The notes below the pieces were generated by a model. It saw only the letters and a program-made list of their open reading frames with translations. It searched no databases and was not told the DNA's origin. Positions 2,151 through 27,756 of a DNA stretch of 40,654 nucleotides are shown here, in pieces. The position numbers and the translations under genes are program-made. Origin of the DNA: a virus; IMG/VR virus record IMGVR_UViG_3300027782_000156, positions 1 through 40,654 of that record. One strand, given 5' to 3'. Every line of letters starts with the position of its first letter. Within the stretch, counting starts at the first letter, position 1.

Positions 2151-2422
2151 TACTTAACAATCGTTTCGTACAGTTGTTCAAACTGTTCATGTGTTGCAAC
2201 TTCTTCATCATAATTTTGTTTGTGATAAACCTTCACCAAACGATTTACTATACGTTTTGGTAATTTCAAGTCTTCACATACCTGCTTTATCGCTTCTTTA
2301 ATAAAGTCTTTTTCTCCTTCCATGCGGACCATGGAATTGGAACATTCTTTGATAGCATCTAGTAATTTCTTGCGGTCAGCATCATTTGAAATTTGATTGA
2401 TTGAAAATTGTTTTACAGCCAT
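2150..2422 (-). CDS. dsbA: DsbA-like double-stranded DNA-binding protein
   Basis: 90 residues, like the 89-residue T4 DsbA, a dsDNA-binding protein implicated at late promoters. The conserved core is the segment ending in RLVKVYHKQN followed by ATHEQFEQLYETIVK, which parallels RLLALYHKDN...VELYDTVF in T4. A longer in-frame extension to 2548 exists, but the ATG at 2422 has a strong AAGGAG ribosome-binding site 7 nt upstream and gives the family length, so it was chosen. The order dsbA-33-59 matches T4. Confidence 0.85.
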   Translation of the reverse strand: MAVKQFSINQISNDADRKKLLDAIKECSNSMVRMEGEKDFIKEAIKQVCEDLKLPKRIVNRLVKVYHKQNYDEEVATHEQFEQLYETIVK

Positions 2423-2432
2423 AATATACTCC

Positions 2433-3578
2433 TTAAATAAATCCCATTTTGCTACCGAATTTTCTTGGATTATCGGCATCAAGTTTTTTGTTGAAAATTT
2501 CAGCAATGCTATACTTGCCTGAATTTTTTGTTTCATAAGAAACACCAAGTTTTTCAGCTAGTTTAGTTGCCTGTTCACCATTCAATTGGTCAAACGATAA
2601 TACATCAAAACAACGACCAGGTCGGATTAATGCAGGATCAACATCACGAATAGATGGAAGATTTGTAGAGAAGATTAGTTTCTTTCCTTTAGTAGTCACC
2701 AAACCATCTCCAACGTTCAGGAAACGATGCATCATAGTATTACCATCACTCCGAGCCTTTAGAAAGTTATCAGAGTCTTCCAGCACCATTACGCCAGTTT
2801 CATCTTCAATAAAACGAGCAAATAAGTAGTCTTTTTCTAGAATGGCTGCATCATATGTAACCATTGCGGAGGAATTACTATGTGCAAGTAAACCACGAAT
2901 AAAAGTAGTTTTTCCTGTTCCTGGTGGTCCAATCAATAGTAAAATATTCGCATTTGATGCAAGATATCGATCATAATATTCAGTCAACTTTTCGGTGCCC
3001 AAAAACGGATACATTTCATCCAAAGGAAGTCTTTCGGTGTTCAATGGAACATTTACAGAATTTCCATCACTTGAATAAACCCATTCAATGTAAGATTTAA
3101 CTTCTTCAAAATTATTCAACAAGTATTCGGAAAATTTCTCTACGAATTCTTTATCACCATAAAGTCTTGCTGTAATAGAATTTGAATTTACATCATACCG
3201 AATGAAGTTTTCTTCATTTGTAATGATGATGCCAGTCGATTCATTAAATTCAATAAGATGTTCATCTTGGAAATCAGATTCAATAAATGTTTGCCAAACA
3301 TTTCTGTTTCCCAACATTTTTACCTCACGGTTGAATGTAGATTTTTCATGTGTTGTACGGAGGTCCATCAATTGTGAAAAGATGTAGTCTCCGTAATCGG
3401 ATGCGCCAATAAAGATTTTTTCGTTATTCATAAATTTATTATTAATTTCACTCGAATCGTATGTCCATGATTTAAACTGTTTTTTCGATTTACGGCTTGC
3501 GCGGGCAACCGTTCTAATTGTTCTAATTGGCCTAGATACTCCTAGACTGGCCAAAAGACTATCTATATTTTTGCTCAT
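2433..3578 (-). CDS. AAA-family ATPase
   Basis: 381 residues from the ATG at 3578, which overlaps the upstream stop as ATGA. The Walker A motif GPPGTGKTT lies near residue 230 and Walker B MVLEDSD near 275. ATNLP-like sensor 1 (FSTNLPSI) and RPGRCFD (arginine-finger region) follow. The N-terminal ~200 residues are unassigned and may be a substrate or partner domain. Similar single-domain AAA ATPases occur in many T4-like phages, but I cannot name the substrate. It is the last gene of a run with the wall hydrolase and a small membrane protein. Confidence 0.85.
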   Translation of the reverse strand: MSKNIDSLLASLGVSRPIRTIRTVARASRKSKKQFKSWTYDSSEINNKFMNNEKIFIGASDYGDYIFSQLMDLRTTHEKSTFNREVKMLGNRNVWQTFIESDFQDEHLIEFNESTGIIITNEENFIRYDVNSNSITARLYGDKEFVEKFSEYLLNNFEEVKSYIEWVYSSDGNSVNVPLNTERLPLDEMYPFLGTEKLTEYYDRYLASNANILLLIGPPGTGKTTFIRGLLAHSNSSAMVTYDAAILEKDYLFARFIEDETGVMVLEDSDNFLKARSDGNTMMHRFLNVGDGLVTTKGKKLIFSTNLPSIRDVDPALIRPGRCFDVLSFDQLNGEQATKLAEKLGVSYETKNSGKYSIAEIFNKKLDADNPRKFGSKMGFI

Positions 3579-3796
3579 TTGCGTGAAGCGGCCATGGTGA
3601 TACAAACTGGATTGGTATTGGTCTCATATGCACACTTGATTGAAAGTGGATCAATACCTTTTGCGATTGCCGATTCCATATTTTGTGCCATGTTGTTTCT
3701 ATCATTGATATTGTAGATGAAAGTGCCGGCAATTAAACCCGCAATAATCACTGATACACATATAATCAATGTTACGATTTCATAGTTCTTAGTCAT
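3575..3796 (-). CDS. small single-pass membrane protein
   Basis: 73 residues. One hydrophobic segment (IVTLIICVSVIIAGLIAGTF, residues 7-26) is followed by a polar tail with two cysteines (C55 and C65) that may face the periplasm. Not recognised as a named family. It is coupled by 4-nt overlaps to the SleB-type hydrolase upstream and the AAA ATPase downstream. The company of a hydrolase suggests an envelope role, which is inference. Confidence 0.7.
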   Translation of the reverse strand: MTKNYEIVTLIICVSVIIAGLIAGTFIYNINDRNNMAQNMESAIAKGIDPLSIKCAYETNTNPVCITMAASRK

Positions 3797-4347
3797 ATAA
3801 ATTCCTTAGTTTTATCAATTTTATCCTTGTGGTTCTTGTAGAAGATATGTTGACCAATCTGGTGAATCTTCTTTAAGTTCCAACGAGGATTTACATAATC
3901 TGCATGGTAATATGTTGAACCGTTTGTCACATCTACCATGAACTCATAATTAACAACTATGTCTGTTGCTAACTGCCTGATGCTATTATACAATGAAGTG
4001 TCTCTAATTGTCAAGCGTTTATCGGCAATTGTTTTCATACAGTACCAAGAAAATTGACATACTGTACCCGTTTTCTGTTGTACAACTTCACAAATAGTAT
4101 TTGCATAGTTGCCTGTTTGTACTCGGTTAATGGTAACAAATGCTACCGCTTTCTTTCCCTCTAATGGCTCATGTGCCGCCTCAAAATACATATTTTCGGC
4201 TAAACAAGTAATTTGCTTCTGTTTATCTTTATTGAGGTCGGCATAAGAAACTTTGTACGGTAATTTAGGTGGACTAATATTTACCATACCAAGACCTACT
4301 ATGAGGGAAGAGAATACTAAACTGAGAAGTATAAGTTTACTTCGCAT
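3793..4347 (-). CDS. SleB/CwlJ-family cell wall hydrolase
   Basis: 184 residues. An N-terminal signal anchor (about residues 3-22) is followed by the Hydrolase_2 core: LAENMYFEAAHEPLEGKKAV near residue 50, VTINRVQTGNYANTICEVV, then CQFSWYCM and YYHADYVNPRW. The glutamate of the EAxxEP block is the expected catalytic residue. The family cleaves peptidoglycan glycan strands, so this is probably a lysis or wall-remodelling enzyme exported by the host Sec system. A good AGGAGA ribosome-binding site precedes the ATG. Confidence 0.85.
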   Translation of the reverse strand: MRSKLILLSLVFSSLIVGLGMVNISPPKLPYKVSYADLNKDKQKQITCLAENMYFEAAHEPLEGKKAVAFVTINRVQTGNYANTICEVVQQKTGTVCQFSWYCMKTIADKRLTIRDTSLYNSIRQLATDIVVNYEFMVDVTNGSTYYHADYVNPRWNLKKIHQIGQHIFYKNHKDKIDKTKEFI

Positions 4348-4423
4348 GTTTTCTCCTTTTTATCTGTGATGATTTTGTGAGAACCATCAAACTCATGTGA
4401 TTAGAACTTTGTGGTCAAATTTA

Positions 4424-4855
4424 TTACGGTGTGCAGGGACCCGTTACAAACCCACCGGCATCCGGTCTACAAGTTGTAGGCAAAGGTGTGCATGGTCCAA
4501 CAATAAAACCGTCCCTGCAGTAATTGATCACAGGTTGTGGAACAACACTGGGTCCAATTACTACAGGCGGAGATATAGTAACCGTTGGTCCTACTACTGG
4601 TCCTGTTACAAATGTCACAGTAGGTGGTGTAGGTCCAACAACTACCTGGCTGGGAACAGTTCCGCTAGGTCCAACAACAAACTGAGGCGTAGTGGGTGTT
4701 TGTGGTTGTAGACCAACCACAAACGGTGCAGGCATGTCGGCAAGTGACTGTGTTGATAATTTTACTACTTGTGGTGTTGATACGTCTGTTGAAGTACCTC
4801 CGCCGCAACCTACCAATACATTCAATAAAAATAGTGAAGCTAATAAGCGATTCAT
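4424..4855 (-). CDS. Pro/Val/Gly-repeat lipoprotein
   Basis: 143 residues. The first 17 residues form a lipoprotein signal with lipobox LVGC (Cys17), followed by GGG. The mature part is low complexity, built from irregular repeats of VVGP, VTGP and PxVVGPxP types. It ends with two related cysteine-bearing units, FIVGPCTP and FVTGPCTP. Expected in the outer or inner membrane of a Gram-negative host. It has no recognised family. Extended Pro-rich lipoproteins occur as outer-membrane spanins, and the nearby SleB hydrolase makes that a possible role, but no partner i-spanin was found. Confidence 0.7.
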   Translation of the reverse strand: MNRLLASLFLLNVLVGCGGGTSTDVSTPQVVKLSTQSLADMPAPFVVGLQPQTPTTPQFVVGPSGTVPSQVVVGPTPPTVTFVTGPVVGPTVTISPPVVIGPSVVPQPVINYCRDGFIVGPCTPLPTTCRPDAGGFVTGPCTP

Positions 4856-18897: not shown

Positions 18898-18905
18898 TAT
18901 AAATA
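18898..18905 (+). promoter_or_regulatory. T4-type late promoter octamer for the plus-strand operon
   Basis: TATAAATA, the exact T4 late consensus recognised by gp55-polymerase with gp33 and the clamp. It lies 50 nt upstream of the first ATG of the operon. No convincing sigma-70 -35/-10 pair was seen here, so the operon is probably late, in contrast to the early promoters around it. Confidence 0.7.
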
Positions 18906-18955
18906 CTAAAATATGATAATGTTATCAAATTTATCAAATTTAATGGAAATTTACA

Positions 18956-19783
18956 ATGAAAAAATTATTTGCTTTGTTGGCTTTGTTGTTCATTACGGCT
19001 ACGTATGCACAGTTACCCACATCAACAATTCCTTTACCACCAGATATCGCCACAATTAAGAAAGCCAATGTTCTTATTGTGGCAATGACCAAAAAAGATG
19101 TTCCTCCTTTCTTTTCGGGAGAAGGAGATAGCATTCACGGTCTTGACGTTGAAATTGCACAAAGAATTGGTGTATTACTTGGAGTTCCTGTACAGTTTAG
19201 ACGAGATGCAGAAAGTTTTGCTGAGGTTGTTGAACAGGTTAGGGACGGTAGAGCAGACATTGCGGTTAGTAAATTGTCCGTAACAGGTCCTCGATTACAG
19301 GTTGTTAGATTTAGCGATCCCTATGTCAAGCTAAAGCAAAGTTTAATTATTAATCGTTTATGGCTCAGTCAAAACAGTCAAGGTAAAGAAACATATCAAG
19401 TGATTCGCGATTTCAATGGAAAAATAAGTTTCATCAAAAACTCCAGCTATGATACATTTGCACGAATTAATTTTCCTAATGCAACTTTTCTTCCTGAAGA
19501 AAAGTGGGATGTAATCATTGATAGAGTTACACGTGGAGATATTGCTGCTGCTTACCGTGACGAGTTTGAAATTAAGAAAATTAGTTTTGAAAAGCCAGAT
19601 GCTGCAATCAGCACCAAGACAATTACAATTTCTGACAGTGTGGATTATATTGCCGTAGCAGTTAACCCAAAAGCAATTCAATTGCTAAGTATGGTTAATT
19701 ACGTTATTAAAAATGAATACAACAACATTGACACTAAAAAGTTAATGGACAGATATAAAGCAGAAAAAAAGGATAAAAAATGA
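18956..19783 (+). CDS. periplasmic solute-binding protein (SBP_bac_3, amino acid type)
   Basis: 275 residues. A Sec signal peptide (about 1-18, cleaved after TYA) has no lipobox. The mature protein shows the family-3 solute-binding fold: VPPFFSGEGDSIHGLDVEIAQRI near 50-70, GRADIAVSKLSVTGPRLQVVRFSDPYV near 99-125 and a C-terminal NPKAIQLLSMVNYVI helix. Normally it captures polar amino acids for an ABC transporter, but no ABC permease or ATPase is present. The next gene, overlapping by ATGA, is a DAACS symporter. Whether the two cooperate is open. The ATG has GGAAA upstream. Confidence 0.87.
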   Translation: MKKLFALLALLFITATYAQLPTSTIPLPPDIATIKKANVLIVAMTKKDVPPFFSGEGDSIHGLDVEIAQRIGVLLGVPVQFRRDAESFAEVVEQVRDGRADIAVSKLSVTGPRLQVVRFSDPYVKLKQSLIINRLWLSQNSQGKETYQVIRDFNGKISFIKNSSYDTFARINFPNATFLPEEKWDVIIDRVTRGDIAAAYRDEFEIKKISFEKPDAAISTKTITISDSVDYIAVAVNPKAIQLLSMVNYVIKNEYNNIDTKKLMDRYKAEKKDKK

Positions 19784-21054
19784 TCTCCCACTTGAAAACA
19801 TTCTTAACTAGTCCATGGACTATTCTTGGTTCAATTGTATTAGGTATTCTTGGTGGAGTTTATACCCCTGACTTTAGCATGAACCTTGACAGCATTGGTA
19901 GTATCTATATCAGTTTGTTAAAAGTAGTTGTGCTACCATTCTTGTTGGCAACTATTCTAGTTGGTATCATAGGACTATTACAAAAAGAAGGTAGTGAAAC
20001 ACTTATAAGGAAAATTATCATTGGTTTTGTGGGAAGTATGTTTTTGGCCGCAGTCATTGGTGTTGGTACTGTGTTAGTCACTGGTACAGAAATGACTCCA
20101 CAAAAGAAGACTGAGTTTGGTGTATTAGTCAACAACAAAGACACAGGAACTGATTTAAATATAACATTACATGAGCCAATGCCAACAGCACCTCCAATCA
20201 GTGCTGGTAAGATGGCTGAGAAGTTTATTCCAGAAAACATTTTCAACACACTTAACAATGGTGAGAGTTTGAAGATTGTTATCTTCTGTTTGATCTTTGG
20301 TGTTGCACTAGGACATTTAAAAACAGAAGGACAACGCATGTTGGTTGAAGTACTAAAGAGTGTTCAACAGGCAAGTATAAGTATCTTTAAGTTCCTAAAC
20401 TACTTCTTACCATTCGCATTGTTAGCAATGATTAGCAGTCAAGTTGGTAAAGTTGGGGTGGGCATCTTTATGACCATGTTTGACTTTGTATTTCAACAGT
20501 TTGTTGGTGGAGTACTTGTTATTGTTGCAGGTACTGTAGTAATATGGATGCGTAGTGGATTGAGTTTGATGACCGTTATTAAAGAAACTAAAGAAACATT
20601 GATTGTTGCTATTAGTTCACGTAGTTCATTAGCTTGTATTCCATATGCACAAGAAGCATTACATAGATTGCATTTCGACAAAGGTGGTGTTGAACTAACT
20701 GTTCCGCTAAGTTTTACTGTCAACAGAATTGGTAGTATTGTTTATTATGCGATTGCCACGGTGTTTATTGCTAACATTTATGATTCACCATTGGGTGCTG
20801 TGGGATTGTTAGTAGTATTGTTTGGTAGTATCTTGGCTGGTTTGGCAAGTGCAGGTACAACAGGTATCCTTACTGTTGCAACCGTGGCGGTTGTTTGTGA
20901 CTTGTTAAAACTACCAAGTGAAGCTGTATTAGTTTTGCTAATTGCAGTTGATCCATTAATGGATATGATTCGTACAGCAAGTCATGTACATGGCAATATT
21001 GCAGTAACCTCATTTGTCTGTGACAAAGAAGCAACCGACAATGGACAAAGCTAA
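19780..21054 (+). CDS. DAACS-family glutamate/dicarboxylate symporter, atypical cation site
   Basis: 424 residues with about eight transmembrane helices and two re-entrant loops, standard DAACS length. HP1 is AISSRSSLACIPYAQEAL, a variant of the serine-rich motif. TM7 has NRIGS where the canonical Na+-binding motif is NMDGT. HP2 has LASAGTTGI. TM8 reads DPLMDMIRTASHVHGN: the two Asp residues and the Arg that binds the substrate side-chain carboxylate are kept, while the Asn and terminal Asp of the canonical NVxGD are His and Asn. It should bind an acidic amino acid or C4-dicarboxylate, but Na+ coupling is doubtful. Sits in the inner membrane. Confidence 0.9.
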   Translation: MISHLKTFLTSPWTILGSIVLGILGGVYTPDFSMNLDSIGSIYISLLKVVVLPFLLATILVGIIGLLQKEGSETLIRKIIIGFVGSMFLAAVIGVGTVLVTGTEMTPQKKTEFGVLVNNKDTGTDLNITLHEPMPTAPPISAGKMAEKFIPENIFNTLNNGESLKIVIFCLIFGVALGHLKTEGQRMLVEVLKSVQQASISIFKFLNYFLPFALLAMISSQVGKVGVGIFMTMFDFVFQQFVGGVLVIVAGTVVIWMRSGLSLMTVIKETKETLIVAISSRSSLACIPYAQEALHRLHFDKGGVELTVPLSFTVNRIGSIVYYAIATVFIANIYDSPLGAVGLLVVLFGSILAGLASAGTTGILTVATVAVVCDLLKLPSEAVLVLLIAVDPLMDMIRTASHVHGNIAVTSFVCDKEATDNGQS

Positions 21055-21649
21055 GGAAATACTTCTTAGTTTATTGACTTGGATAGGCGAGAGTCCATTT
21101 CGCCTATTTGCGGTTATAATTTTATGTGTATTTGGATTTGGTGGTTGGTTTTTATATTCTGAAAAAGATGCATTTATGGCAAGTTATCGTGCCGAACAAG
21201 CATTACCGCGTATGAACGGAGAATATGAAAAAGCCTCAAATTTTATATTGAAATATAGTCAAGCAGAATTGATTGCAGTATTTCAAGTCAATACAATATT
21301 GAACACGCGCAAGCTAGTTTATTTTACTACTCGCAGCGGTGGAATTGAAAAAGATTACTATGGCACAGATGTTGGTCTACTGACTAAAAATTACGACAAT
21401 AATAATGATGTGATTTCAATGATGTCGGGAAAAGTACCATGTCAAGATTACCTAACACCTCAAAGTTTTATGGGATTCGTTTATGTTGAAAGAGGCGTAA
21501 AATATATGTGTCGTATAAGTGTACCTGCGGAACCCGGTACATTTATTGGACAAATTTCAGTTGGATGGAAATCAAAACCTGACCCAGATGAGGTTGCTAA
21601 TGAGCAAGCTGTGATGCATGTTGCTAGTAGTTTATTATTTAAAAAATGA
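21041..21649 (+). CDS. single-pass membrane protein with soluble domain, unknown
   Basis: 202 residues from the ATG at 21041, which overlaps the symporter stop; a start at 21014 in the same frame is possible but lies deeper in the symporter. One membrane segment (LFAVIILCVFGFGGWFLY, near residue 22-39) is followed by a soluble domain of about 155 residues with two cysteines. A positive-inside count (few charges before, KDA after) leaves the orientation open. No family recognised. Its place in the transporter operon suggests an accessory or regulatory subunit. Confidence 0.75.
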   Translation: MDKAKEILLSLLTWIGESPFRLFAVIILCVFGFGGWFLYSEKDAFMASYRAEQALPRMNGEYEKASNFILKYSQAELIAVFQVNTILNTRKLVYFTTRSGGIEKDYYGTDVGLLTKNYDNNNDVISMMSGKVPCQDYLTPQSFMGFVYVERGVKYMCRISVPAEPGTFIGQISVGWKSKPDPDEVANEQAVMHVASSLLFKK

Positions 21650-21714
21650 TGAGACTTCCTTCTGTTATATTCTGTGGCATCATAATAATTATTTTACTGA
21701 TTGTACTGTTATGA
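21646..21714 (+). CDS. 22-residue transmembrane micropeptide
   Basis: ATG 21646 overlaps the upstream stop (ATGA), and its own TGA overlaps the racemase ATG (ATGA). After MMRLPS the peptide is a single hydrophobic helix rich in Ile and Leu (VIFCGIIIIILLIVLL). Such micropeptides can be transporter subunits. The double overlap is the main evidence that it is real. It may alternatively serve only to couple translation. Confidence 0.55.
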   Translation: MMRLPSVIFCGIIIIILLIVLL

Positions 21715-22406
21715 AAAAGTTGGGGGTTTTGGGTGGAATGGGTCCAGCAGCCAGTGCAGAGTTTGTGACAAGATTAATTAAAAAAACTCCTGCTACTAAA
21801 GACCAAGATCATATTCCATTTGTTCTCTGGAATGAACCACAAATTCCGGACCGTAGCATCAGTATGCGTAATGGTGATGATAATCCTTTGCCGTACTTGC
21901 TGGATGGCATACAAGCATTAAAATTTACCGGGTGTGATTTAATAGTCATACCCTGTAACACAGCACATTTTTGGCATCACGAACTAATTAAACAAAATAT
22001 TCCTATCATTCACATCGTTGACAGTATAGCAGACGCATTACGTGAGGTTGATGTTAGCAATTCGACCATAGGAATTATGGGCACACAAGCTACGATTGAA
22101 TTTGGTTTGTATCAATACAGGTTGAATAAACTGGGATGGAATTGTATTGTACCTTCCACACTAGAGATGGATACATTAGTCCAACCTGCAATTGATTTAA
22201 TTAAAGGTGGAAATATTGTCCAAGCTCATTCAATGTTAATGTCTGTTGTAGGAAGTCTAATAGATCGTGGTGCAACAGCAGTGATATTAGGGTGTACAGA
22301 GATACCTCTGGCAGTAACAGCGGCCTATCAAGATGGTATCCCCATAGTCAACAGCATTGATAGCTTAGTTAATGCTGTGGTCAAACGCTACTCATTTGTT
22401 AGCTAA
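21711..22406 (+). CDS. aspartate/glutamate racemase family protein
   Basis: 231 residues from ATG 21711. The glycine-rich start KKLGVLGGMGPAAS and the two catalytic cysteines of the family are present: Cys82 in VIPCNTAH and a second in ILGCTEIPL near residue 190. The cofactor-free two-cysteine mechanism interconverts L- and D-Asp or Glu. A longer frame to 21618 overlaps the gene before it and was rejected. As the last gene of an operon with an acidic amino acid carrier, it may convert imported amino acids or feed D-Glu to the wall. Substrate is not provable from sequence. Confidence 0.88.
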   Translation: MKKLGVLGGMGPAASAEFVTRLIKKTPATKDQDHIPFVLWNEPQIPDRSISMRNGDDNPLPYLLDGIQALKFTGCDLIVIPCNTAHFWHHELIKQNIPIIHIVDSIADALREVDVSNSTIGIMGTQATIEFGLYQYRLNKLGWNCIVPSTLEMDTLVQPAIDLIKGGNIVQAHSMLMSVVGSLIDRGATAVILGCTEIPLAVTAAYQDGIPIVNSIDSLVNAVVKRYSFVS

Positions 22407-23120: not shown

Positions 23121-23195
23121 ATGGTCCGGCGTAGAGGAATCGAACCTCTATAAAGACTTTAGAAGAATCTTGTCCTGTCCATTGAACGAACGCCA
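23121..23195 (-). tRNA. tRNA-Arg (TCT)
   Basis: Acceptor CTGGCGT/ACGCCGG with one U-G pair, anticodon loop CTTCTAA on a 5-bp stem, T-loop TTCGATT and encoded CCA. Reads AGA. It is the last tRNA of the array. Confidence 0.92.
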
Positions 23196-23197
23196 GA

Positions 23198-23213
23198 TAA
23201 AAAATTTGTAGAG
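23198..23213 (-). repeat. 16-nt complement of the tRNA leader sequence
   Basis: AAAAATTTGTAGAGTT on the plus strand, inverted relative to the same sequence in the two boxA-like leaders near 26301-26318 and 27762-27780. In the array transcript it can pair with the 5' leader. Confidence 0.5.
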
Positions 23214-23241
23214 TTAATATATTATTTACAGGTTTACCATT

Positions 23242-23316
23242 TGGTGTCTCCAACAGGAATCGAACCTGTATCCGGGACTTAGGAGGTCCCTATTCTGTCC
23301 GTTGAACTATAGAGAC
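23242..23316 (-). tRNA. tRNA-Arg (CCT)
   Basis: Acceptor GTCTCTA/TGGAGAC, anticodon stem GGGAC/GTCCC with loop CTCCTAA, T-loop TTCGATT, encoded CCA. Reads AGG. Confidence 0.92.
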
Positions 23317-23322
23317 ATTGTG

Positions 23323-23399
23323 TGGTACCCTAGGTCAGATTCGAACTGACACTGAATGGATTTTGAATCCATCGCCTCTACCGATTGGGCTACGAGGGC
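23323..23399 (-). tRNA. tRNA-Leu (CAA) with short variable loop
   Basis: Anticodon stem ATGGA/TCCAT with loop TTCAAAA; T-arm GTCAG/CTGAC with TTCGAAT; A73 and CCA encoded. The acceptor has a G-U end pair and a C-U mismatch. The variable loop is 5 nt (TCAGT), whereas leucine tRNAs normally have a long arm, so the Leu identity rests on the anticodon alone. Confidence 0.8.
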
Positions 23400-23402
23400 A
23401 TA

Positions 23403-23478
23403 TGGTGCGGATACTGGGATTCGAACCCAGACTTGAGGGATTTTAAGTCCCTTGCCTCTACCTTTGCGCTATATCCGC
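23403..23478 (-). tRNA. tRNA-Leu (TAA) with short variable loop
   Basis: Perfect acceptor GCGGATA/TATCCGC, anticodon stem AGGGA/TCCCT with loop CTTAAAA, T-loop TTCGAAT, A73 and CCA. The variable loop is 5 nt (CAAGT), again without the class II arm usual for leucine. Confidence 0.85.
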
Positions 23479-23485
23479 AGAATTT

Positions 23486-23561
23486 TGGTGCAACCTGTAG
23501 GAATCGAACCTACTTCAATGGTTCTTCAGACCACCGCTATGACCACATCAGCTAAAGTTGC
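23486..23561 (-). tRNA. tRNA-Phe (GAA)
   Basis: Acceptor GCAACTT/AGGTTGC, anticodon loop CTGAAGA, T-loop TTCGATT, A73 and CCA encoded. Confidence 0.92.
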
Positions 23562-23566
23562 TAAAT

Positions 23567-23640
23567 TGGTGCTCTCACCGAGAATCAAACTCAGGTCTCA
23601 CCCGTACCAAGGGCGTGTACTATCACTGTACTATGGGAGC
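23567..23640 (-). tRNA. tRNA-Thr (GGT), degenerate
   Basis: Anticodon stem CGCCC/GGGTG with loop TTGGTAC gives GGT; A37 follows U36 as expected for Thr. The D-loop AGTGATA lacks the GG pair, the T-loop is TTTGATT instead of TTCGATT, and the acceptor has one C-A mismatch. The tertiary contacts are weakened, so it may be decaying. Confidence 0.7.
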
Positions 23641-23644
23641 AAAT

Positions 23645-23719
23645 TGGTACCTTGTGACGGGATCGAACCGCCGACCTTCTCCTTGTAAGGGAGACACTCT
23701 ACCGCTGAGTTAACAAGGC
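23645..23719 (-). tRNA. tRNA-Val (TAC)
   Basis: Acceptor GCCTTGT/ACAAGGT, anticodon stem TCTCC/GGAGA with loop CTTACAA, T-loop TTCGATC, A73 and CCA. Confidence 0.92.
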
Positions 23720-23722
23720 GCT

Positions 23723-23797
23723 TGGGGAGAAGTACGGGAATCGAACCCGTGATAGCGGAATCACAACCCGCGGTTTTACCACTAAACTAACAACTCC
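23723..23797 (-). tRNA. tRNA-His (GTG)
   Basis: Anticodon stem GCGGG/TCCGC with loop TTGTGAT. The histidine hallmark, an extra G(-1) opposite C73, is present at 23797. The acceptor stem GAGTTGT/ACTTCTC has two U-U mismatches. T-arm ACGGG/CCCGT is intact and CCA is encoded. Confidence 0.85.
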
Positions 23798-23802
23798 ATA
23801 TT

Positions 23803-23876
23803 TGGAGCGGGTAGAGAGAATCGAACTCTCACACTAACCTTGGCAAGGTCACAGGCTACCTTTACATCATACCCGC
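23803..23876 (-). tRNA. tRNA-Gly (GCC)
   Basis: Perfect acceptor GCGGGTA/TACCCGC, anticodon loop TTGCCAA, T-loop TTCGATT, U73 and CCA encoded. Confidence 0.93.
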
Positions 23877-23956
23877 ATATAGAAACACACTCATCACGCA
23901 CCGTATCGTAGGTGATCAAATCTACAATCTTATAGGCATCAAAATGTGTTTGTATA

Positions 23957-24030
23957 TGGAGCGGGATGCGAGAATCGAACTCGCAACTTCAACTTGGAAG
24001 GATGACGTTTTACCACTAAACTAATCCCGC
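23957..24030 (-). tRNA. tRNA-Gly (TCC)
   Basis: Perfect acceptor GCGGGAT/ATCCCGC, anticodon loop CTTCCAA, T-loop TTCGATT, U73 and CCA. Preceded on its left by an 80-nt spacer with complementary ends. Confidence 0.92.
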
Positions 24031-24067
24031 AAAATCCCATTTAACGATATGGGCATCGGAGTCTGTT

Positions 24068-24538
24068 CTAAGCCGCTAGACTTTTCAATCTATCAGCCGC
24101 ATAAGAAGCCGCAAATGCATTTGGTTTGACCAAAGGAACAACGTTACACATACCCTTAATGTAACCGATAGCTTCGTTTACTACGATACTTGAATTATAC
24201 ATCAAATTTGGATTTATGTCAAGATGAACTTCAATATCATTAGGGATTATTTCCGCTAATTGTATGTACATTTCAGCAACTTTATATACCTCATTCATTA
24301 ACCTCATTCTAGGTTTGTCTCGCTTGACTTCATAGTCACGTTCTCTGGTAACTTGTCCAAAAATTTTACAACCGTGCTTACCGTCAATATGAACAACGAT
24401 AGCAACAATGTAATCAGCATACCAATCGCCATTAATTTTAATCTTCTCGGAGTCACATCCAAGATAAATTTTAGTTTCTGGACCGCAACTTTCGATATAT
24501 GTTTTAACTAAATTCAAGTCGAGTTTATCATTGTACAT
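24068..24538 (-). CDS. YkuK-like (DUF458) RNase H-fold protein
   Basis: 156 residues. The block TKIYLGCDSEKIKINGDWYADYIVAIVVHI near 22-51 carries the first conserved Asp of the RNase H-like fold; EVHLDINPN near 113 gives the next acidic strand, and the end KPNAFAASYAADRLK is typical of the YkuK family. Its activity is unknown. It interrupts the tRNA array between Trp and Gly genes, so it is co-transcribed with tRNAs and could be a tRNA-processing or quality-control nuclease, which is inference. Confidence 0.8.
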   Translation of the reverse strand: MYNDKLDLNLVKTYIESCGPETKIYLGCDSEKIKINGDWYADYIVAIVVHIDGKHGCKIFGQVTRERDYEVKRDKPRMRLMNEVYKVAEMYIQLAEIIPNDIEVHLDINPNLMYNSSIVVNEAIGYIKGMCNVVPLVKPNAFAASYAADRLKSLAA

Positions 24539-24557
24539 ATTGTACCCCTTAAAAAAT

Positions 24558-24633
24558 TGGCATCCCGGGAAGGAATCGAACCTTCAACCTTTGGTTTTGG
24601 AGACCACTGCTCTGCCAATTGAGCTACCGAGAC
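24558..24633 (-). tRNA. tRNA-Trp (CCA)
   Basis: Acceptor GTCTCGG/CCGGGAT with G-U pairs, anticodon loop CTCCAAA, T-loop TTCGATT, G73 (usual for Trp) and CCA encoded. Confidence 0.9.
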
Positions 24634-24638
24634 ATATT

Positions 24639-24713
24639 TGGTACCGATAGACAATTTCGAAATGTCGACCTAACGCTTATCAAGCGTTTGCTCTTCCTCT
24701 GAGCTATATCGGT
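24639..24713 (-). tRNA. tRNA-Ile (GAT)
   Basis: Perfect acceptor ACCGATA/TATCGGT, anticodon stem AACGC/GCGTT with loop TTGATAA, T-loop TTCGAAA, A73 and CCA. One mismatch in the T-stem. Confidence 0.9.
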
Positions 24714-24717
24714 TAAT

Positions 24718-24794
24718 TGGTGCGTCCTGAGAGATTCGAACTCCCAACCTCAGGTTTCGAAGACCTGCTTTCTATCCAGTTGAATTAAGGACGC
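24718..24794 (-). tRNA. tRNA-Arg (TCG)
   Basis: Perfect acceptor GCGTCCT/AGGACGC, anticodon stem CAGGT/ACCTG with loop CTTCGAA, T-loop TTCGAAT, A73 and CCA. Confidence 0.92.
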
Positions 24795-24799
24795 ATATT

Positions 24800-24874
24800 T
24801 GGTGGTGATAGAGAGACTTGAACTCCCAACAATCACCGTATGAAGGTGGTGTTCTACCATTGAACTATATCACC
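24800..24874 (-). tRNA. tRNA with anticodon CAT (elongator Met or Ile2)
   Basis: Perfect acceptor GGTGATA/TATCACC, anticodon loop TTCATAC on four paired bases, T-loop TTCAAGT, A73 and CCA. G1-C72 pairing excludes an initiator. If the C34 is made lysidine it would read AUA; this cannot be told from sequence alone. Confidence 0.88.
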
Positions 24875-24879
24875 AAAAC

Positions 24880-24950
24880 TGGTTGCGGGTGTGGGATTCG
24901 AACCCACTAGATAGAGCTTATGAGACTTACCGATACCCTGAATACCCGCA
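24880..24950 (-). tRNA. short tRNA-like gene with anticodon CAT
   Basis: 71 nt. Acceptor TGCGGGT/ACCCGCA and T-arm GTGGG/CCCAC are perfect, and CCA is encoded. The D and variable parts together are about four nt too short and the anticodon stem has only three pairs (AGT/GCT) around CTCATAA. The 3' end CCGCAACCA resembles initiator tRNAs. Either an unusual small tRNA or a decaying one. Confidence 0.6.
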
Positions 24951-24958
24951 ATAAAAAT

Positions 24959-25032
24959 TGGTCTCGGTGGCAAGAATCGAACTTGCGCTACATGGTCCCA
25001 AACCACGGGTGATGCCATTTCACTACACCGAG
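24959..25032 (-). tRNA. tRNA-Pro (TGG)
   Basis: Perfect acceptor CTCGGTG/CACCGAG, anticodon loop TTTGGGA, T-loop TTCGATT, A73 and CCA. Confidence 0.92.
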
Positions 25033-25040
25033 AAAACTAT

Positions 25041-25115
25041 TGGTGGACCGTGGGAGAATCGAACTCCCACTTCATGCTTGCAAAGCACATGTGCTACCAT
25101 TATCACTAACAGCCC
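25041..25115 (-). tRNA. tRNA-Ala (TGC)
   Basis: Acceptor GGGCTGT/ACGGTCC with two G-U pairs, anticodon loop TTTGCAA, T-loop TTCGATT, A73 and CCA. The usual G3-U70 identity pair of alanine is present. Confidence 0.92.
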
Positions 25116-25164
25116 AAATGACTTATTACTTATCTCATTGTACGCCATAAGTCAAGGCGAGATT

Positions 25165-25240
25165 TGGTGCCCTAGGAGAGACTCGAACTCTCAGAACCTG
25201 GTTTCTAAGACCAGTACGTATACCATTCCGTCACCAGGGC
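25165..25240 (-). tRNA. tRNA-Leu (TAG) with short variable loop
   Basis: Acceptor GCCCTGG/CTAGGGC, anticodon stem CTGGT/ACCAG with loop CTTAGAA, T-arm GAGAG/CTCTC, A73 and CCA. The D-arm (GGAATGGTATACG) looks leucine-like, but the variable region is only 5 nt (GTTCT). Confidence 0.87.
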
Positions 25241-25273
25241 AATATTGAATTTTTAAGTCACACTTACAAAACT

Positions 25274-25347
25274 TGGTGCCCCATGACAGAATCGAACTGC
25301 CGTAACCTGATTACAAAACAGGTGTAATACCATTATACTAATAGGGC
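25274..25347 (-). tRNA. tRNA-Thr (TGT)
   Basis: Acceptor GCCCTAT/ATGGGGC with one U-G, anticodon loop TTTGTAA, T-loop TTCGATT, A73 and CCA. Confidence 0.92.
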
Positions 25348-25604
25348 AATGCTTCCTGCACATCGTGGTAATTATAGTACATCAACATAGATTAATCCTG
25401 ATTCCAACTCAACTAAGGTTGGGGATTCTATGCATCACACATACCTTCCACCCACTCGTCATGCACAAGACTTTCGTGTTGCTAACGCTGGTTAGGTCGA
25501 CCCATGGTTACCCATGACTTCCATTACAGAAGAAGAACCATCCTACAGTTGTCACACTGTTTCTCGTCATGCGGATCACATTAGCCAAAGACACTTGGCA
25601 CGTT
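25348..25604. other. 257-nt stretch without a gene inside the tRNA array
   Basis: No complete cloverleaf and no credible protein gene. It contains a short hairpin CATGG-TTAC-CCATG (25503-25516), a partly paired segment around ATTCCAAC/GTTGGGG (25401-25424), and two minus-strand GCATGACGAG repeats. It may hold a structured RNA, degraded tRNA genes or just spacer. Confidence 0.4.
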
Positions 25605-25681
25605 TGGTTGCGATGGCTGGATTCGAACCAGCGATTCCACAGCTTATGAGACTGGGCGGATGACCACTTCCATACATCGCG
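25605..25681 (-). tRNA. initiator-like tRNA (CAT) with C1-A72 mismatch
   Basis: Acceptor CGCGATG/CATCGCA pairs at six positions with an unpaired C1-A72, the hallmark that marks bacterial initiator tRNA for formylation. Anticodon loop CTCATAA, D-stem TGGA/TCCG, T-arm GCTGG/CCAGC with TTCGAAT, A73 and CCA. It lacks the three G-C pairs of canonical initiator anticodon stems. Confidence 0.82.
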
Positions 25682-25685
25682 ATAT

Positions 25686-25761
25686 TGGCTCCCCAGCGTG
25701 GGATCGAACCACGGACACCTTGATTAACAGTCAAGTGCAACTACCGCTGTGCTACTAGGGA
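25686..25761 (-). tRNA. tRNA-Asn (GTT)
   Basis: Acceptor TCCCTAG/CTGGGGA, anticodon stem CTTGA/TCAAG with loop CTGTTAA, T-loop TTCGATC, G73 and CCA. Confidence 0.93.
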
Positions 25762-25768
25762 ATAAACT

Positions 25769-25843
25769 TGGCGGTCCCAAGGGGTAACGATCCCCTTCTT
25801 TCAGCGTGACAGGCTGATGTGCGTCCATGAACACTTTGAGACC
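25769..25843 (-). tRNA. tRNA-Asp (GTC), unusual T-loop
   Basis: Acceptor GGTCTCA/TGGGACC, anticodon stem TCAGC/GCTGA with loop CTGTCAC, G73 (Asp identity) and CCA. The T-stem AGGGG/CCCCT is sound, but its loop is ATCGTTA, not TTCRANN, so a D-T contact is altered. Confidence 0.82.
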
Positions 25844-25848
25844 AAATT

Positions 25849-25941
25849 TGGTGGAGTAACTTGGAGTCGAACCAAGAATGTTTACCACAAGGGGACGGAT
25901 TTACAGTCCGCCGATGCACACGCCATAGCATCAATTACTCC
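25849..25941 (-). tRNA. tRNA-Tyr (GTA)
   Basis: 93 nt class II tRNA. Acceptor GGAGTAA/TTACTCC perfect, anticodon loop CTGTAAA, a long variable arm CCCCTTGTGG, T-loop TTCGACT, A73 and CCA. The D-arm is longer than usual. Confidence 0.9.
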
Positions 25942-25950
25942 GAATTTTTT

Positions 25951-26025
25951 TGGTAGGGGTACCGAGAATCGAACTCGGATTACCTGGTTAAAAGCCAGAT
26001 ACTTTAGCCGTTAAGTTATACCCCC
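25951..26025 (-). tRNA. tRNA-Lys (TTT)
   Basis: Acceptor GGGGGTA/TACCCCT, anticodon loop CTTTTAA, T-arm CCGAG/CTCGG, A73 and CCA. Confidence 0.92.
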
Positions 26026-26031
26026 GAATCT

Positions 26032-26106
26032 TGGTGCCTTGAGAGAGAATTGAACTCCCACTCAAGCGATTATGAGTCGCCTGCTTTACCATTAAGCTAC
26101 CAAGGC
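26032..26106 (-). tRNA. tRNA with anticodon CAT (Met or Ile2)
   Basis: Acceptor GCCTTGG/TCAAGGC, anticodon stem GGCGA/TCGCT with loop CTCATAA, T-loop TTCAATT, A73 and CCA. G1-C72 pair, so not an initiator. One of four CAT genes in the array. Confidence 0.88.
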
Positions 26107-26111
26107 ATTTC

Positions 26112-26228
26112 TACCATATTAAAACATACTACGTATCTTAGTATCAGTGCTAGTAATTATCTAGTCTATAATACCCAAATAGTTAGACCGCGAATCTATC
26201 CCAACCTGTAATATGTTTTAATATGGTA
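26112..26228. repeat. 17-bp perfect inverted repeat around 83 nt
   Basis: TACCATATTAAAACATA (26112-26128) and its exact complement (26212-26228) flank an 83-nt centre. The right arm overlaps the encoded CCA of the neighbouring Glu tRNA. In RNA it would make a long stem between the Glu and CAT tRNA genes. The centre has a CTAGATAATTACTAG palindrome-like segment but no tRNA. Confidence 0.8.
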
Positions 26229-26298
26229 CTCCGTACCAGAATCGAACTGGTCTTATCGGGTTGAAAACCCGGTGTCCTAACCGATAGACGAACGGAGT
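26224..26298 (-). tRNA. tRNA-Glu (TTC)
   Basis: Perfect acceptor ACTCCGT/ACGGAGT, anticodon loop TTTTCAA, T-arm ACCAG/CTGGT, A73 and CCA. First tRNA after the 26354-26381 promoter. Confidence 0.92.
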
Positions 26299-26299
26299 A

Positions 26300-26330
26300 A
26301 ATTAAACTCTACAAATTTTTAAAGAACATG
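26300..26330 (-). promoter_or_regulatory. rRNA-like boxA leader of the tRNA array
   Basis: The transcript leader contains TGTTCTTTAAAAATTTGTAG, close to bacterial rRNA boxA antitermination elements (TGYTCTTTAA). The same GTTCTTTAAAAATTTGTAGA follows the second tRNA promoter at 27792. Confidence 0.7.
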
Positions 26331-26353
26331 TTGATTTCTCAACTCATGTATAG

Positions 26354-26381
26354 AGTATAACACAACCAGAGGTTTTGTCAA
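26354..26381 (-). promoter_or_regulatory. sigma-70 promoter of the main tRNA array
   Basis: TTGACA (26376-26381), 16 nt, TATACT (26354-26359) on the minus strand, about 50 nt upstream of tRNA-Glu. Confidence 0.85.
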
Positions 26382-26414
26382 CATCTATTTGCATGTTGTT
26401 GTTTTTTTAACAAC

Positions 26415-26490
26415 TGGAGTAGGTGACAGGAATCGAACCTGCATAAAACAGATTTGCAATCTGTTCCCTAGCCTTTCGGGTCACACCTAC
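26415..26490 (-). tRNA. tRNA-Cys (GCA)
   Basis: Perfect acceptor GTAGGTG/CACCTAC, anticodon stem ACAGA/TCTGT with loop TTGCAAA, T-loop TTCGATT, U73 (Cys identity) and CCA. Confidence 0.93.
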
Positions 26491-26496
26491 ATTTTT

Positions 26497-26586
26497 TGGT
26501 GGAGAGTCAGGGAGTCGAACCCTGTGACCATATTACTATAGTCTATAGATTAGCAATCTACTGCATTACCGTCCTGCCCACTCTCC
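26497..26586 (-). tRNA. tRNA-Ser (GCT)
   Basis: 90 nt class II tRNA. Perfect acceptor GGAGAGT/ACTCTCC, anticodon loop TTGCTAA, long variable arm GACTATAGTAATATGGTC, T-loop TTCGACT and CCA. Confidence 0.92.
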
Positions 26587-26589
26587 AAA

Positions 26590-27153
26590 TTACATTATAG
26601 GTCCGTTACCGTTCCTAAATCCTACTTCACCACCTTCTTCTTTGATTCGTTTGATAACATTTTCAAAAAGAATAGGAGTAAAATCAGTTTGTTCTACACA
26701 TACACAATGGTACCTTGTATCAATCTTTTCATCCTTCATAACACGTCCTGTATGAAGGTGTCCATGAATGTTAACTCCAAATCGACCAAGACTTTCAGGG
26801 TGAAGTGGAATATGAGAAAGAATCATTCCGTTCATTACGTGATATGCACGGAGTTCCCGAAAGTGTACTCGATATTCATCATCACGAAAAATATCATGGT
26901 TACCTCGGATGAGAACTTTGTCACCATTCAGTCTATGCATAATGCTTAGTGATTTACGGTTAATAACAACGTCACCCAGATGATACACTTTATCTTTTGG
27001 ACCAACGGTTTCATTCCAACGTTTGACCATTTCTTCATCCATTTCATTTGGATCCGTCCATGGTCTAATCTTTTCATTTGTTTTAGAATCTGTGAAACGA
27101 CATACACCGGCATGACCAAAGTGTGTGTCACTTACGAGAAATACTGATGGCAT
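26590..27153 (-). CDS. calcineurin-like metallophosphoesterase
   Basis: 187 residues. Metal ligands are seen in order: SDTHFGH (Asp8, His10), HLGDVVIN (GD near 60), IRGNHDIF (GNHD near 83), LSHIPLH near 112 and IHGHLH near 129. The family cleaves phosphodiesters or phosphomonoesters, often cyclic nucleotides, RNA 2',3' ends or pyrophosphates. It lies within the tRNA transcription unit between Ser and the next gene and, like the RNA ligase at 32 kb, might treat RNA ends. That is inference. Confidence 0.85.
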   Translation of the reverse strand: MPSVFLVSDTHFGHAGVCRFTDSKTNEKIRPWTDPNEMDEEMVKRWNETVGPKDKVYHLGDVVINRKSLSIMHRLNGDKVLIRGNHDIFRDDEYRVHFRELRAYHVMNGMILSHIPLHPESLGRFGVNIHGHLHTGRVMKDEKIDTRYHCVCVEQTDFTPILFENVIKRIKEEGGEVGFRNGNGPIM

Positions 27154-27154
27154 A

Positions 27155-27532
27155 TCAAACTCCTTTTACCACTTTATGCAATGAAACGCTTTCGGAATAG
27201 TAGCCATTAGACTCACCATACCAACGAATGTCAACATAACCTTTGATAGTGGCTAGCTTGTAGAATGTCCATGTGAACGAATCTTGGTAATTTGGCACTT
27301 CAGCACCTTCTGGATTTTCATTGCTCGATGACTCTTCAGCAACAAGCAATGGAACACCGATCAGGTCTTGAACATCACCAACAACGGACTCAACTGAAAC
27401 AGACTCGCAACAATCTTGGTCATGGTACATGTTATACACTTCACCATCAACAGTAACAAATTTGATGTTATCATTATCAACATCAACTTCTTTTAAAACT
27501 TTCCCTAATAGGGATTCAAAATTTACGTACAT
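27155..27532 (-). CDS. DUF7448-like protein
   Basis: 125 residues from ATG 27532, which has AAAGGAAA upstream; the frame to 27580 runs into the Ser tRNA gene and was rejected. Blocks such as DGEVYNMYHDQDCCESVSVE, VGDVQDLIGVPLLVAEE and TWTFYKLATIKGYVDIRWYG are the signature of a short conserved family in phages and bacteria that I know as DUF7448. Its role is unknown. It is in the tRNA unit. Confidence 0.8.
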   Translation of the reverse strand: MYVNFESLLGKVLKEVDVDNDNIKFVTVDGEVYNMYHDQDCCESVSVESVVGDVQDLIGVPLLVAEESSSNENPEGAEVPNYQDSFTWTFYKLATIKGYVDIRWYGESNGYYSESVSLHKVVKGV

Positions 27533-27551
27533 ATAATTTCCTTTATATAAC

Positions 27552-27643
27552 TGGCGGAAAGCAGAGGAGTCGAACCCCATCCCATTTCTGAGAACCCAGT
27601 TTTCAAGGCTGGTCGGCGGACCAACCCACCTGCATTACTTTCC
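27552..27643 (-). tRNA. tRNA-Ser (TGA)
   Basis: 92 nt class II tRNA. Acceptor GGAAAGT/GCTTTCC, anticodon loop CTTGAAA, long variable arm GTTCTCAGAAATGGGAT, T-loop TTCGACT, G73 (Ser identity) and CCA. Confidence 0.9.
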
Positions 27644-27681
27644 AGACATACTGAAACTCACTCATTAAATGAATTTTAATA

Positions 27682-27756
27682 TGGCACCCGGTGGAGGGAT
27701 CGAACCTACGCATCATGGAGTCAAAGTCCATTGCCTTTCCGCTTGGCTAACCGGGT
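27682..27756 (-). tRNA. tRNA-Gln (TTG)
   Basis: Perfect acceptor ACCCGGT/ACCGGGT, anticodon stem ATGGA/TCCAT with loop CTTTGAC, T-loop TTCGATC, G73 and CCA. First gene after the 27792-27820 promoter. Confidence 0.92.

Follow-up and report, generated by a model that had tools for sequence, protein, structure and literature searches.

The virus record IMGVR_UViG_3300027782_000156 of the IMG/VR database, which was analysed as a whole (40,654 bases, termed the window), harbours a plus-strand run of five overlapping genes (18956–22406). They encode, in this order, a solute-binding protein (SBP), a carrier of the DAACS/SDF family, a membrane protein resembling holin T of phage T4, a micropeptide with a transmembrane (TM) segment and an amino-acid racemase. 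With moderate confidence, we read this block as a late phage operon built on a captured bacterial operon for the uptake of acidic amino acids, combined with a T-like, putative holin gene. Moreover, the linkage of the SBP and carrier genes holds across taxa, comprising 21 of 22 bacterial and 70 of 70 phage loci, and the SBP-SDF pair is a candidate for a class of SBP-dependent secondary transporters beyond TRAP, TTT and TAXI-GltS.

A search of IMG/VR with the carrier alignment as query yielded 77 distinct loci from the best 80 of 91 confirmed stretches, including a record with a carrier 100% identical to that of the window and several near-identical contigs, and altogether 65 distinct carrier proteins. 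In all 70 loci with enough sequence, the SBP gene is located at most 400 nucleotides (nt) upstream of the carrier gene on the same strand, and the T-like membrane protein gene is found at the end of the carrier gene in all 66 testable loci. Counted per distinct carrier protein, the SBP adjoins in 59 of 59 and the membrane gene in 54 of 54 cases. The racemase gene follows downstream in 56 of 61 testable loci, directly adjoining in 53 and after inserted genes in three. The flanks of the operon differ widely among the phages while the gene order stays, and the contigs carrying it reach up to 524 kb. A gene for a T4-type Gp23 capsid protein is present in nine of the 23 records searched (window included), and therefore at least those are T4-like. 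The recurrence of the same order in dozens of contigs rules out chance or an annotation artefact as the source of the block, which is thus not peculiar to the window.

A first-pass annotation of the window had stated that no described phage system with this gene set was known to it, and this view fits the searches made here. No published description of an SBP-DAACS-racemase operon or of the phage block was found by literature searches, and tblastn with single proteins as queries retrieved no close relative of the carrier, SBP or racemase from 50,697 annotated phage records. The top-ranked places in these records cover 90% of the carrier at 25.7% identity, 86% of the SBP at 27.9% and 97% of the racemase at 37.4%, and shorter pieces reach 33.3% identity. 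Many of the INPHARED matches to the SDF carrier, SBP or racemase lie in records that are annotated with bacterial genes or not annotated at all; they look like bacterial DNA and were rejected as phage relatives. In MT837652, an unannotated faecal “phage” record of 6,468 bases, a racemase gene (33.0% identity) adjoins an SDF carrier gene (23.9%) at about 2372–4488. Distant relatives of the membrane protein occur in six of the 50,697 records.

The SBP (P0001) belongs to family 3 according to its Pfam score (Table 1). Arg113 is found in all 51 distinct phage SBPs and in all 22 bacterial rows, and Asp202 in 51 of 51 and 21 of 22, respectively; by analogy to HisJ, we take these residues to bind the α-carboxylate and the amino group of amino-acid ligands. 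The predicted model of the SBP matches amino-acid binding proteins in general, which also make up most of the nearest PDB chains listed, and points to no specific ligand. An assignment as MltF transglycosylase was discarded (40.7 bits, cut-off 354).

SDF is the only Pfam family found on the carrier at E ≤ 0.05, and at this limit the carrier matches none of the membrane components of TRAP, TTT or TAXI-GltS transporters (DctM/QM, TctA or GltS). Its residues were read on an alignment with GltPh, in which we assume Asn310, Asp312, Asn401 and Asp405 to be Na+ ligands and Asp394, Arg397 and Thr398 to hold the substrate. Among 56 full-length distinct phage copies (three short ones of 59 were left out), the three substrate residues and Asn310 are intact throughout, while Asp312 is replaced by Ile, Val or Leu, Asn401 by His and Asp405 by Asn in every copy; position 311, a Met in GltPh, is Arg in all 56. 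Five ordinary carriers in the same alignment have mostly intact ligands. The 27 bacterial SDF rows (second carriers counted, seven short rows excluded) have likewise lost Asp312 and Asp405 in all cases, contain Arg311 in 24 and retain Asn310 in three. Due to the loss of the three Na+ ligands in all phage copies an ordinary Na+ symporter is judged unlikely, and because Arg occupies position 311 as well, conventional Na+ coupling probably does not power the carrier.

The racemase passes the Asp_Glu_race family of Pfam (135.1 bits, cut-off 31) and resembles cysteate racemase CuyB and aspartate racemase. The NCBIfam model NF052483 (cysteate racemase CuyB) is the sole equivalog above its cut-off, and the cut-off of the broader subfamily TIGR00035 is also passed. 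All 15 chosen racemase copies match NF052483 at E ≤ 1e-5, the score relative to the cut-off referring to the window protein only. Cys82 and Cys195, which presumably form the two-cysteine motif that acts in racemisation, are invariant across 15 aligned phage and bacterial copies, and we infer a substrate of the cysteate, aspartate or glutamate type. Since the Arg and Asp of the SBP, the substrate residues of the carrier and the cysteines of the racemase are all intact, the three phage proteins appear functional and would fit an amino acid whose side chain is acidic.

A corresponding bacterial operon exists. In four overlapping groups of bacterial genomes the carrier subfamily was detected in 3 of 300, 7 of 398, 9 of 299 and 8 of 297 genomes (E limits 1e-35, 1e-45, 1e-40 and 1e-45, respectively). 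Of 22 such loci examined, a few of them near-identical, 21 have the SBP gene immediately upstream in the same orientation, the remaining one being cut by the contig end; the racemase gene is located downstream in 16. No holin-like gene was found in the stretches of these loci, mostly 1.5 kb on each side. This order of SBP and SDF genes, usually followed by the racemase gene, occurs in Burkholderiales and other Pseudomonadota, and on a plasmid of Gemmobacter aquarius the genes for SBP, SDF, racemase and a second SDF carrier (SDF2), all annotated generically, stand in a row. Six ordinary carriers examined together with the 22 subfamily loci have neither an SBP nor a racemase as neighbour. As a control, 30 SDF loci from 60 genomes of one bacterial family were inspected: 27 ordinary carriers lack a racemase neighbour and yield three weak SBP matches (14–27 bits), and all three subfamily loci, two of which are also among the 22, contain both genes. 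The likely task of the bacterial operon is the uptake of an acidic amino acid, i.e., aspartate, glutamate or cysteate. These operons rule out an invention of the gene set by phages. The proposal in the first-pass annotation of a binding protein-assisted uptake system with a racemase is partly supported, in so far as the gene set is real, recurs in bacteria and retains binding residues in the phage SBP and carrier; the set did not originate in phages, and an ordinary Na+ symporter is unlikely.

A tree of 21 phage and 32 bacterial carrier rows, which was computed by a quick method and contains several long branches, groups the phage carriers into a single clade (SH-aLRT 100). A contig of a Burkholderiales metagenome-assembled genome (MAG; locus L120) encodes an SBP together with a carrier that shares 64% identity with its phage counterpart, beside genes that by eye look chromosomal. 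Its carrier falls inside the phage clade (SH-aLRT 99), and the other bacterial carriers are placed outside. Because of this nested position, the MAG copy may be of phage origin and thus reflect a transfer from phage to host. On the same contig, the phage-clade pair has an SBP-SDF-SDF2 set of the bacterial kind as neighbour. The bacterial operon can include such an additional, more diverged SDF carrier (L120, L196, L242 and L280), and a channel-like gene was noticed by eye near L120, as well as an annotated ion transporter gene on the other strand at L280.

The closest known system is TAXI-GltS of Bordetella pertussis (BP0403-GltS), in which an SBP gene is linked to and overlaps the gene of a sodium/glutamate carrier (PMC12344293). 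There, the carrier is modelled as an elevator, and linkage, ligand binding and gene fusions form the basis on which coupling is proposed, with a transport test pending. TAXI-GltS combines a TAXI-type SBP with a carrier of the GltS (ESS) family, whereas a family 3 SBP, a DAACS carrier with lost Na+ ligands and a racemase are joined here; furthermore, ligand binding and gene fusions are reported for TAXI-GltS, and no fusion was seen here, where no systematic search for one was made. TRAP and TTT systems (PMC5812351) are alike in performing secondary transport with a periplasmic SBP and differ in their membrane proteins and SBPs. No precedent for the pairing of an SBP with a DAACS carrier was found in the literature searches, TAXI-GltS being a near precedent. 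According to the study on TAXI-GltS, only TRAP and TT transporters were previously known to use a soluble SBP, a feature of the elevator mechanism may permit help by an SBP, and more such classes would allow this idea to be tested (PMC12344293). The archetypes GltPh and GltTk share the Pfam family and the intact Asp394, Arg397 and Thr398 with the phage copies, which, in contrast, lack Asp312, Asn401 and Asp405, contain Arg instead of Met311 and are linked to an SBP. Since DAACS includes the best-studied elevator, GltPh, the SBP-linked subfamily renders the idea of SBP help directly testable. The lost Na+ ligands raise the second question of what drives the carrier.

The operon appears to be expressed late. 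An exact match to the T4 late promoter octamer TATAAATA, as previously noted, is indeed located at 18898–18905; it is uninformative in itself, given that the octamer is no commoner than chance in the window (two matches on both strands, 4.48 expected), and gains weight from its enrichment in relatives. Omission of two genes without a start and 14 duplicates from 72 SBP genes left 56 distinct upstream sequences. In 44 of these 56 sequences, the motif [TC]ATAAATA lies no more than 80 nt before the SBP start, as compared to 34 of 510 control open reading frames (ORFs; Fisher p 4e-33), and the first base of the octamer lies between -25 and -12 in 29 of 56 compared to 19 of 510 (Fisher p 9e-21). 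The control starts are first start codons and hence less exact, which tilts these comparisons somewhat toward the test set. The commonest places of the octamer are -15 and -13 (14 and 13 cases), and in the window it is found at -58. The geometry of T4-type late promoters fixes the transcription start site relative to the octamer. Given that an octamer at -15 or -13 would set the start on or beside the start codon, the SBP message may be leaderless in most relatives. Holin T of T4 is expressed late, too.

The first-pass annotation called the third gene product simply a membrane protein, and its resemblance to holin T was overlooked. In PHROGs the protein matches only phrog_31287, a group of unassigned function. 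The AlphaFold model (predicted local distance difference test, pLDDT, 87.5) comprises an N-terminal membrane helix and a GAF-like domain, and upon structural re-alignment of 1000 chains with VIA-align, T4 holin T occupies ranks 1–3 (Z 13.0, 12.9 and 12.7; 132–133 residues, root-mean-square deviation 3.2–3.3). A comparison of profiles with seven T holins (hhalign) spans 166 columns, places the TM parts in register and yielded 82% probability and, for one comparison, an E-value of 1e-5. The score of 43.2 compares to a maximum of 21.0 for 60 fully shuffled versions, 19.3 for the reverse sequence and at most 21.0 for four other families. The periplasmic part alone scored 24.4 (probability 9.6%), slightly above the shuffled maximum of 22.6 (60 shuffles), and the lone T4 T sequence gave 1.7% against the membrane-protein profile. 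A profile of the membrane-protein alignment found no T holin among PDB sequences. PF11031 (holin T) had no match in 27 records, and phrog_860 had one spurious match in 20 records. Taken together, the protein is termed T-like here, and its status as a holin is putative. Holin T of T4, which has the antiholin RI (PMC11413866), also possesses one TM helix and a periplasmic GAF-like domain of similar length. The phage protein differs in lacking a match to a curated family, in its conserved cysteines, which do not coincide with those of T in the alignment, and in the location of its gene between transporter and racemase genes; no RI homologue was identified.

Homologues of the membrane protein stand alone in the Straboviridae S13 and Ci1, with no annotated transporter nearby; in these two phages PF11031 and phrog_860 find no convincing T. 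The sole T-model match of S13 (18 bits) contains an internal stop, runs antisense within a reductase gene and was dismissed. Another homologue is encoded two genes from a lysozyme gene in a spring phage. In 20 of 23 IMG/VR records, many of which are fragments, only the operon copies were found.

According to the reading outlined at the beginning, the SBP would capture its ligand in the periplasm, as suggested by the intact Arg and Asp, and hand it over to the elevator-type SDF carrier, which, judging from its residues, would probably import it by means other than the usual Na+ drive. In the cytoplasm, the racemase with its two-cysteine motif would interconvert the L and D forms. T4-like phages would have captured this gene set, probably once because the phage carriers form one clade. 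The T-like holin gene would have been placed between the carrier and racemase genes, often together with a small TM peptide, and the operon would be controlled by a T4-type late promoter. Late in infection, the operon would supply the cell with amino acid and nitrogen, and the T-like holin would determine when the infection ends.

Several observations weigh against this interpretation. The confidence of the SBP model is middling (pLDDT 71.7), the carrier could work without help of the SBP, and no SBP-SDF fusion was seen, no systematic search for fusions having been made. In the bacterial rows Asp394, Arg397 and Thr398 are present in only 19, 20 and 21 of 27, respectively, and the racemase is absent from five of the 61 testable phage loci. 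For the membrane protein, GAF domains tie with T4 holin T in VIA-align (from Z 12.4) and rank first in Foldseek, where T follows from rank 15. If the TM part is kept and the rest shuffled (60 versions), the T-holin profile score still averages 32.0 and reaches at most 35.6, as compared to 43.2; PF11031 matches none of 16 members at E ≤ 1. In addition, three of the 23 phage records contain a second, more distant T-like member, such that the operon copy could be a specialised paralogue. Uptake by the operon, its substrate and the holin activity are inferred here from sequences and models.

The simple capture of an uptake operon also leaves unexplained that the T-like gene is steadier in the block than the racemase gene and that a TM peptide lies beside it, which provides room for a coupling of ligand, carrier and lysis. 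Hence, the operon might instead constitute a sensor of lysis timing, in which the SBP and the Na+-uncoupled carrier detect an amino acid outside the cell, or the D form that the racemase has produced in other infected cells, and inform the T-like holin, either directly or via the micropeptide, so that lysis is advanced or delayed. The invariant phage core of SBP, SDF carrier and T-like protein, with the racemase dispensable in some loci, favours this scenario, as do the overlap of the carrier and T-like genes by 8–38 nt in 50 of 67 loci with a settable start, the failure to find a T-like gene in the bacterial stretches and the micropeptide that abuts the T-like gene. Furthermore, a second T-like gene stands immediately behind the operon in L039 and L160, together with a gene for a protein of 92–93 amino acids (aa) with a signal-like start and two cysteines, and an opposite-strand gene for a hydrolase clustered with a GH19 endolysin. 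This scenario is drawn from gene order alone, however, and a bacterial operon exists without any holin; most other loci lack such a second cassette in the stretch examined, and the idea that the small secreted-looking protein is a homologue of T4 RI found no support (hhalign probability 0.2%). No described holin is known to us to respond to an amino acid, no search aimed at one having been made, and overall we regard a sensor of this type as unlikely. A fuller version, in which the SBP and the DAACS-derived, Na+-uncoupled carrier sense an acidic or D-amino acid released from neighbouring lysed cells, the signal passes through the carrier and the 20-residue TM peptide to the T-like holin such that the lysis time tracks the external ligand level, and the racemase makes or removes the signal form, appears more improbable still. 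A holin-like gene that is fixed in a transport operon across dozens of phage contigs represents a lead for nutrient-linked lysis timing.

It is rather doubtful that the membrane protein is a GAF-type, ligand-binding accessory subunit of the transporter and not a holin. The near-equal Z scores of GAF domains and T, the first Foldseek ranks of the former and the constant position of the gene behind the carrier gene are in agreement with such a subunit. On the other hand, the homologues in the two Straboviridae have no annotated transporter nearby and that in a spring phage is encoded near a lysozyme gene; the single TM helix, the size and the profile fit T holins, and 29 viral models matched at E ≤ 0.001 include three with the name holin (ranks 12, 13 and 25).

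Finally, the block might consist of ordinary auxiliary metabolic genes, with the carrier and the SBP acting separately and the T-like gene as a mere neighbour in a late unit, for which the strongly varying flanks and the fact that DAACS carriers normally need no SBP could be adduced; this is improbable, since the gene order stays while the flanks change and, in the sampled bacteria, linkage of SBP and SDF genes is a specific trait of one SDF subfamily.

At its start the micropeptide gene overlaps the stop codon of the preceding T-like gene, and its end overlaps the start of the racemase gene; it is present in 27 of 66 loci. Its 19 distinct sequences comprise 19–22 aa and nearly all consist of MRLPxVI followed by a hydrophobic run. 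The lengths vary by whole codons, and the 1040 pairwise differences are distributed over the codon positions 1, 2 and 3 as 400, 128 and 512; the pairwise comparisons lack independence, and a T at position 2 is in any case typical of hydrophobic codons. Non-synonymous differences (484) exceed synonymous ones (327), which weighs against coding. Given its recurrence, the length steps of three and the codon-position pattern, a spurious ORF is nevertheless judged unlikely. As a guess, the peptide regulates the holin-like protein or the carrier.

The layout of the operon in the window is compiled in Table 1. All five ORFs of the previously described overlapping plus-strand genes are present, three of them with Pfam matches above the cut-off, and the overlaps amount to 4, 14, 4 and 4 bases in order along the operon. 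Nearly all other likely genes are located on the minus strand. The assertion that these are the only plus-strand protein genes was borne out by inspection by eye, which revealed no further convincing gene, the other plus ORFs being short or running across tRNA genes or minus-strand ORFs. A racemase ORF of 262 aa with a start at 21618 is over-extended, the listed start being the one in keeping with the family.

Table 1. Features of the operon in the window (positions refer to the window).
Feature	Position	Strand	Evidence
T4-type late promoter octamer TATAAATA	18898-18905	+	Exact match, 58 nt before the SBP start
SBP, family 3, signal peptide-like start, 275 aa	18956-19783	+	PF00497 (SBP_bac_3), 60.5 bits (cut-off 26.4)
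DAACS/SDF elevator-type carrier, 424 aa, SBP-linked subfamily without canonical Na+ ligands	19780-21054	+	PF00375 (SDF), 219.5 bits (cut-off 27.9), residues 13-413; GltPh alignment
T4 holin T-like protein (putative holin), one TM helix and periplasmic GAF-like domain, 202 aa	21041-21649	+	AlphaFold model; structure and profile matches
TM micropeptide, 22 aa	21646-21714	+	ATGA overlap at each end; present in 27/66 loci
Two-cysteine amino-acid racemase, cysteate-racemase (CuyB) type, 231 aa	21711-22406	+	NF052483, 222.5 bits (cut-off 190)

Directly beyond the operon, 28 tRNA genes are located on the minus strand (23122–27756), and the window also encodes a gp32-like single-strand DNA-binding protein and an endolysin-like cell-wall hydrolase. 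Among the flanks of the 77 phage loci, cell-wall enzymes clustered with a GH19 or Hydrolase_2 member occur in 18. In seven loci a Gram-negative porin gene (Porin_4) is found shortly downstream of the operon (e.g., L131:9635-10540), as if entry of the solute through the outer membrane were also supplied. Because of these cell-wall enzymes and the porin, the hosts are probably Gram-negative. Three further neighbours recur in 26–27 loci each (L178:917-5564, L139:9610-10230 and relatives), namely two large proteins with signal-like starts and a protein of 206 aa, none of which has a Pfam match. One contig, IMGVR_UViG_3300027749_002876 (524,565 bases), carries two different copies of the operon.

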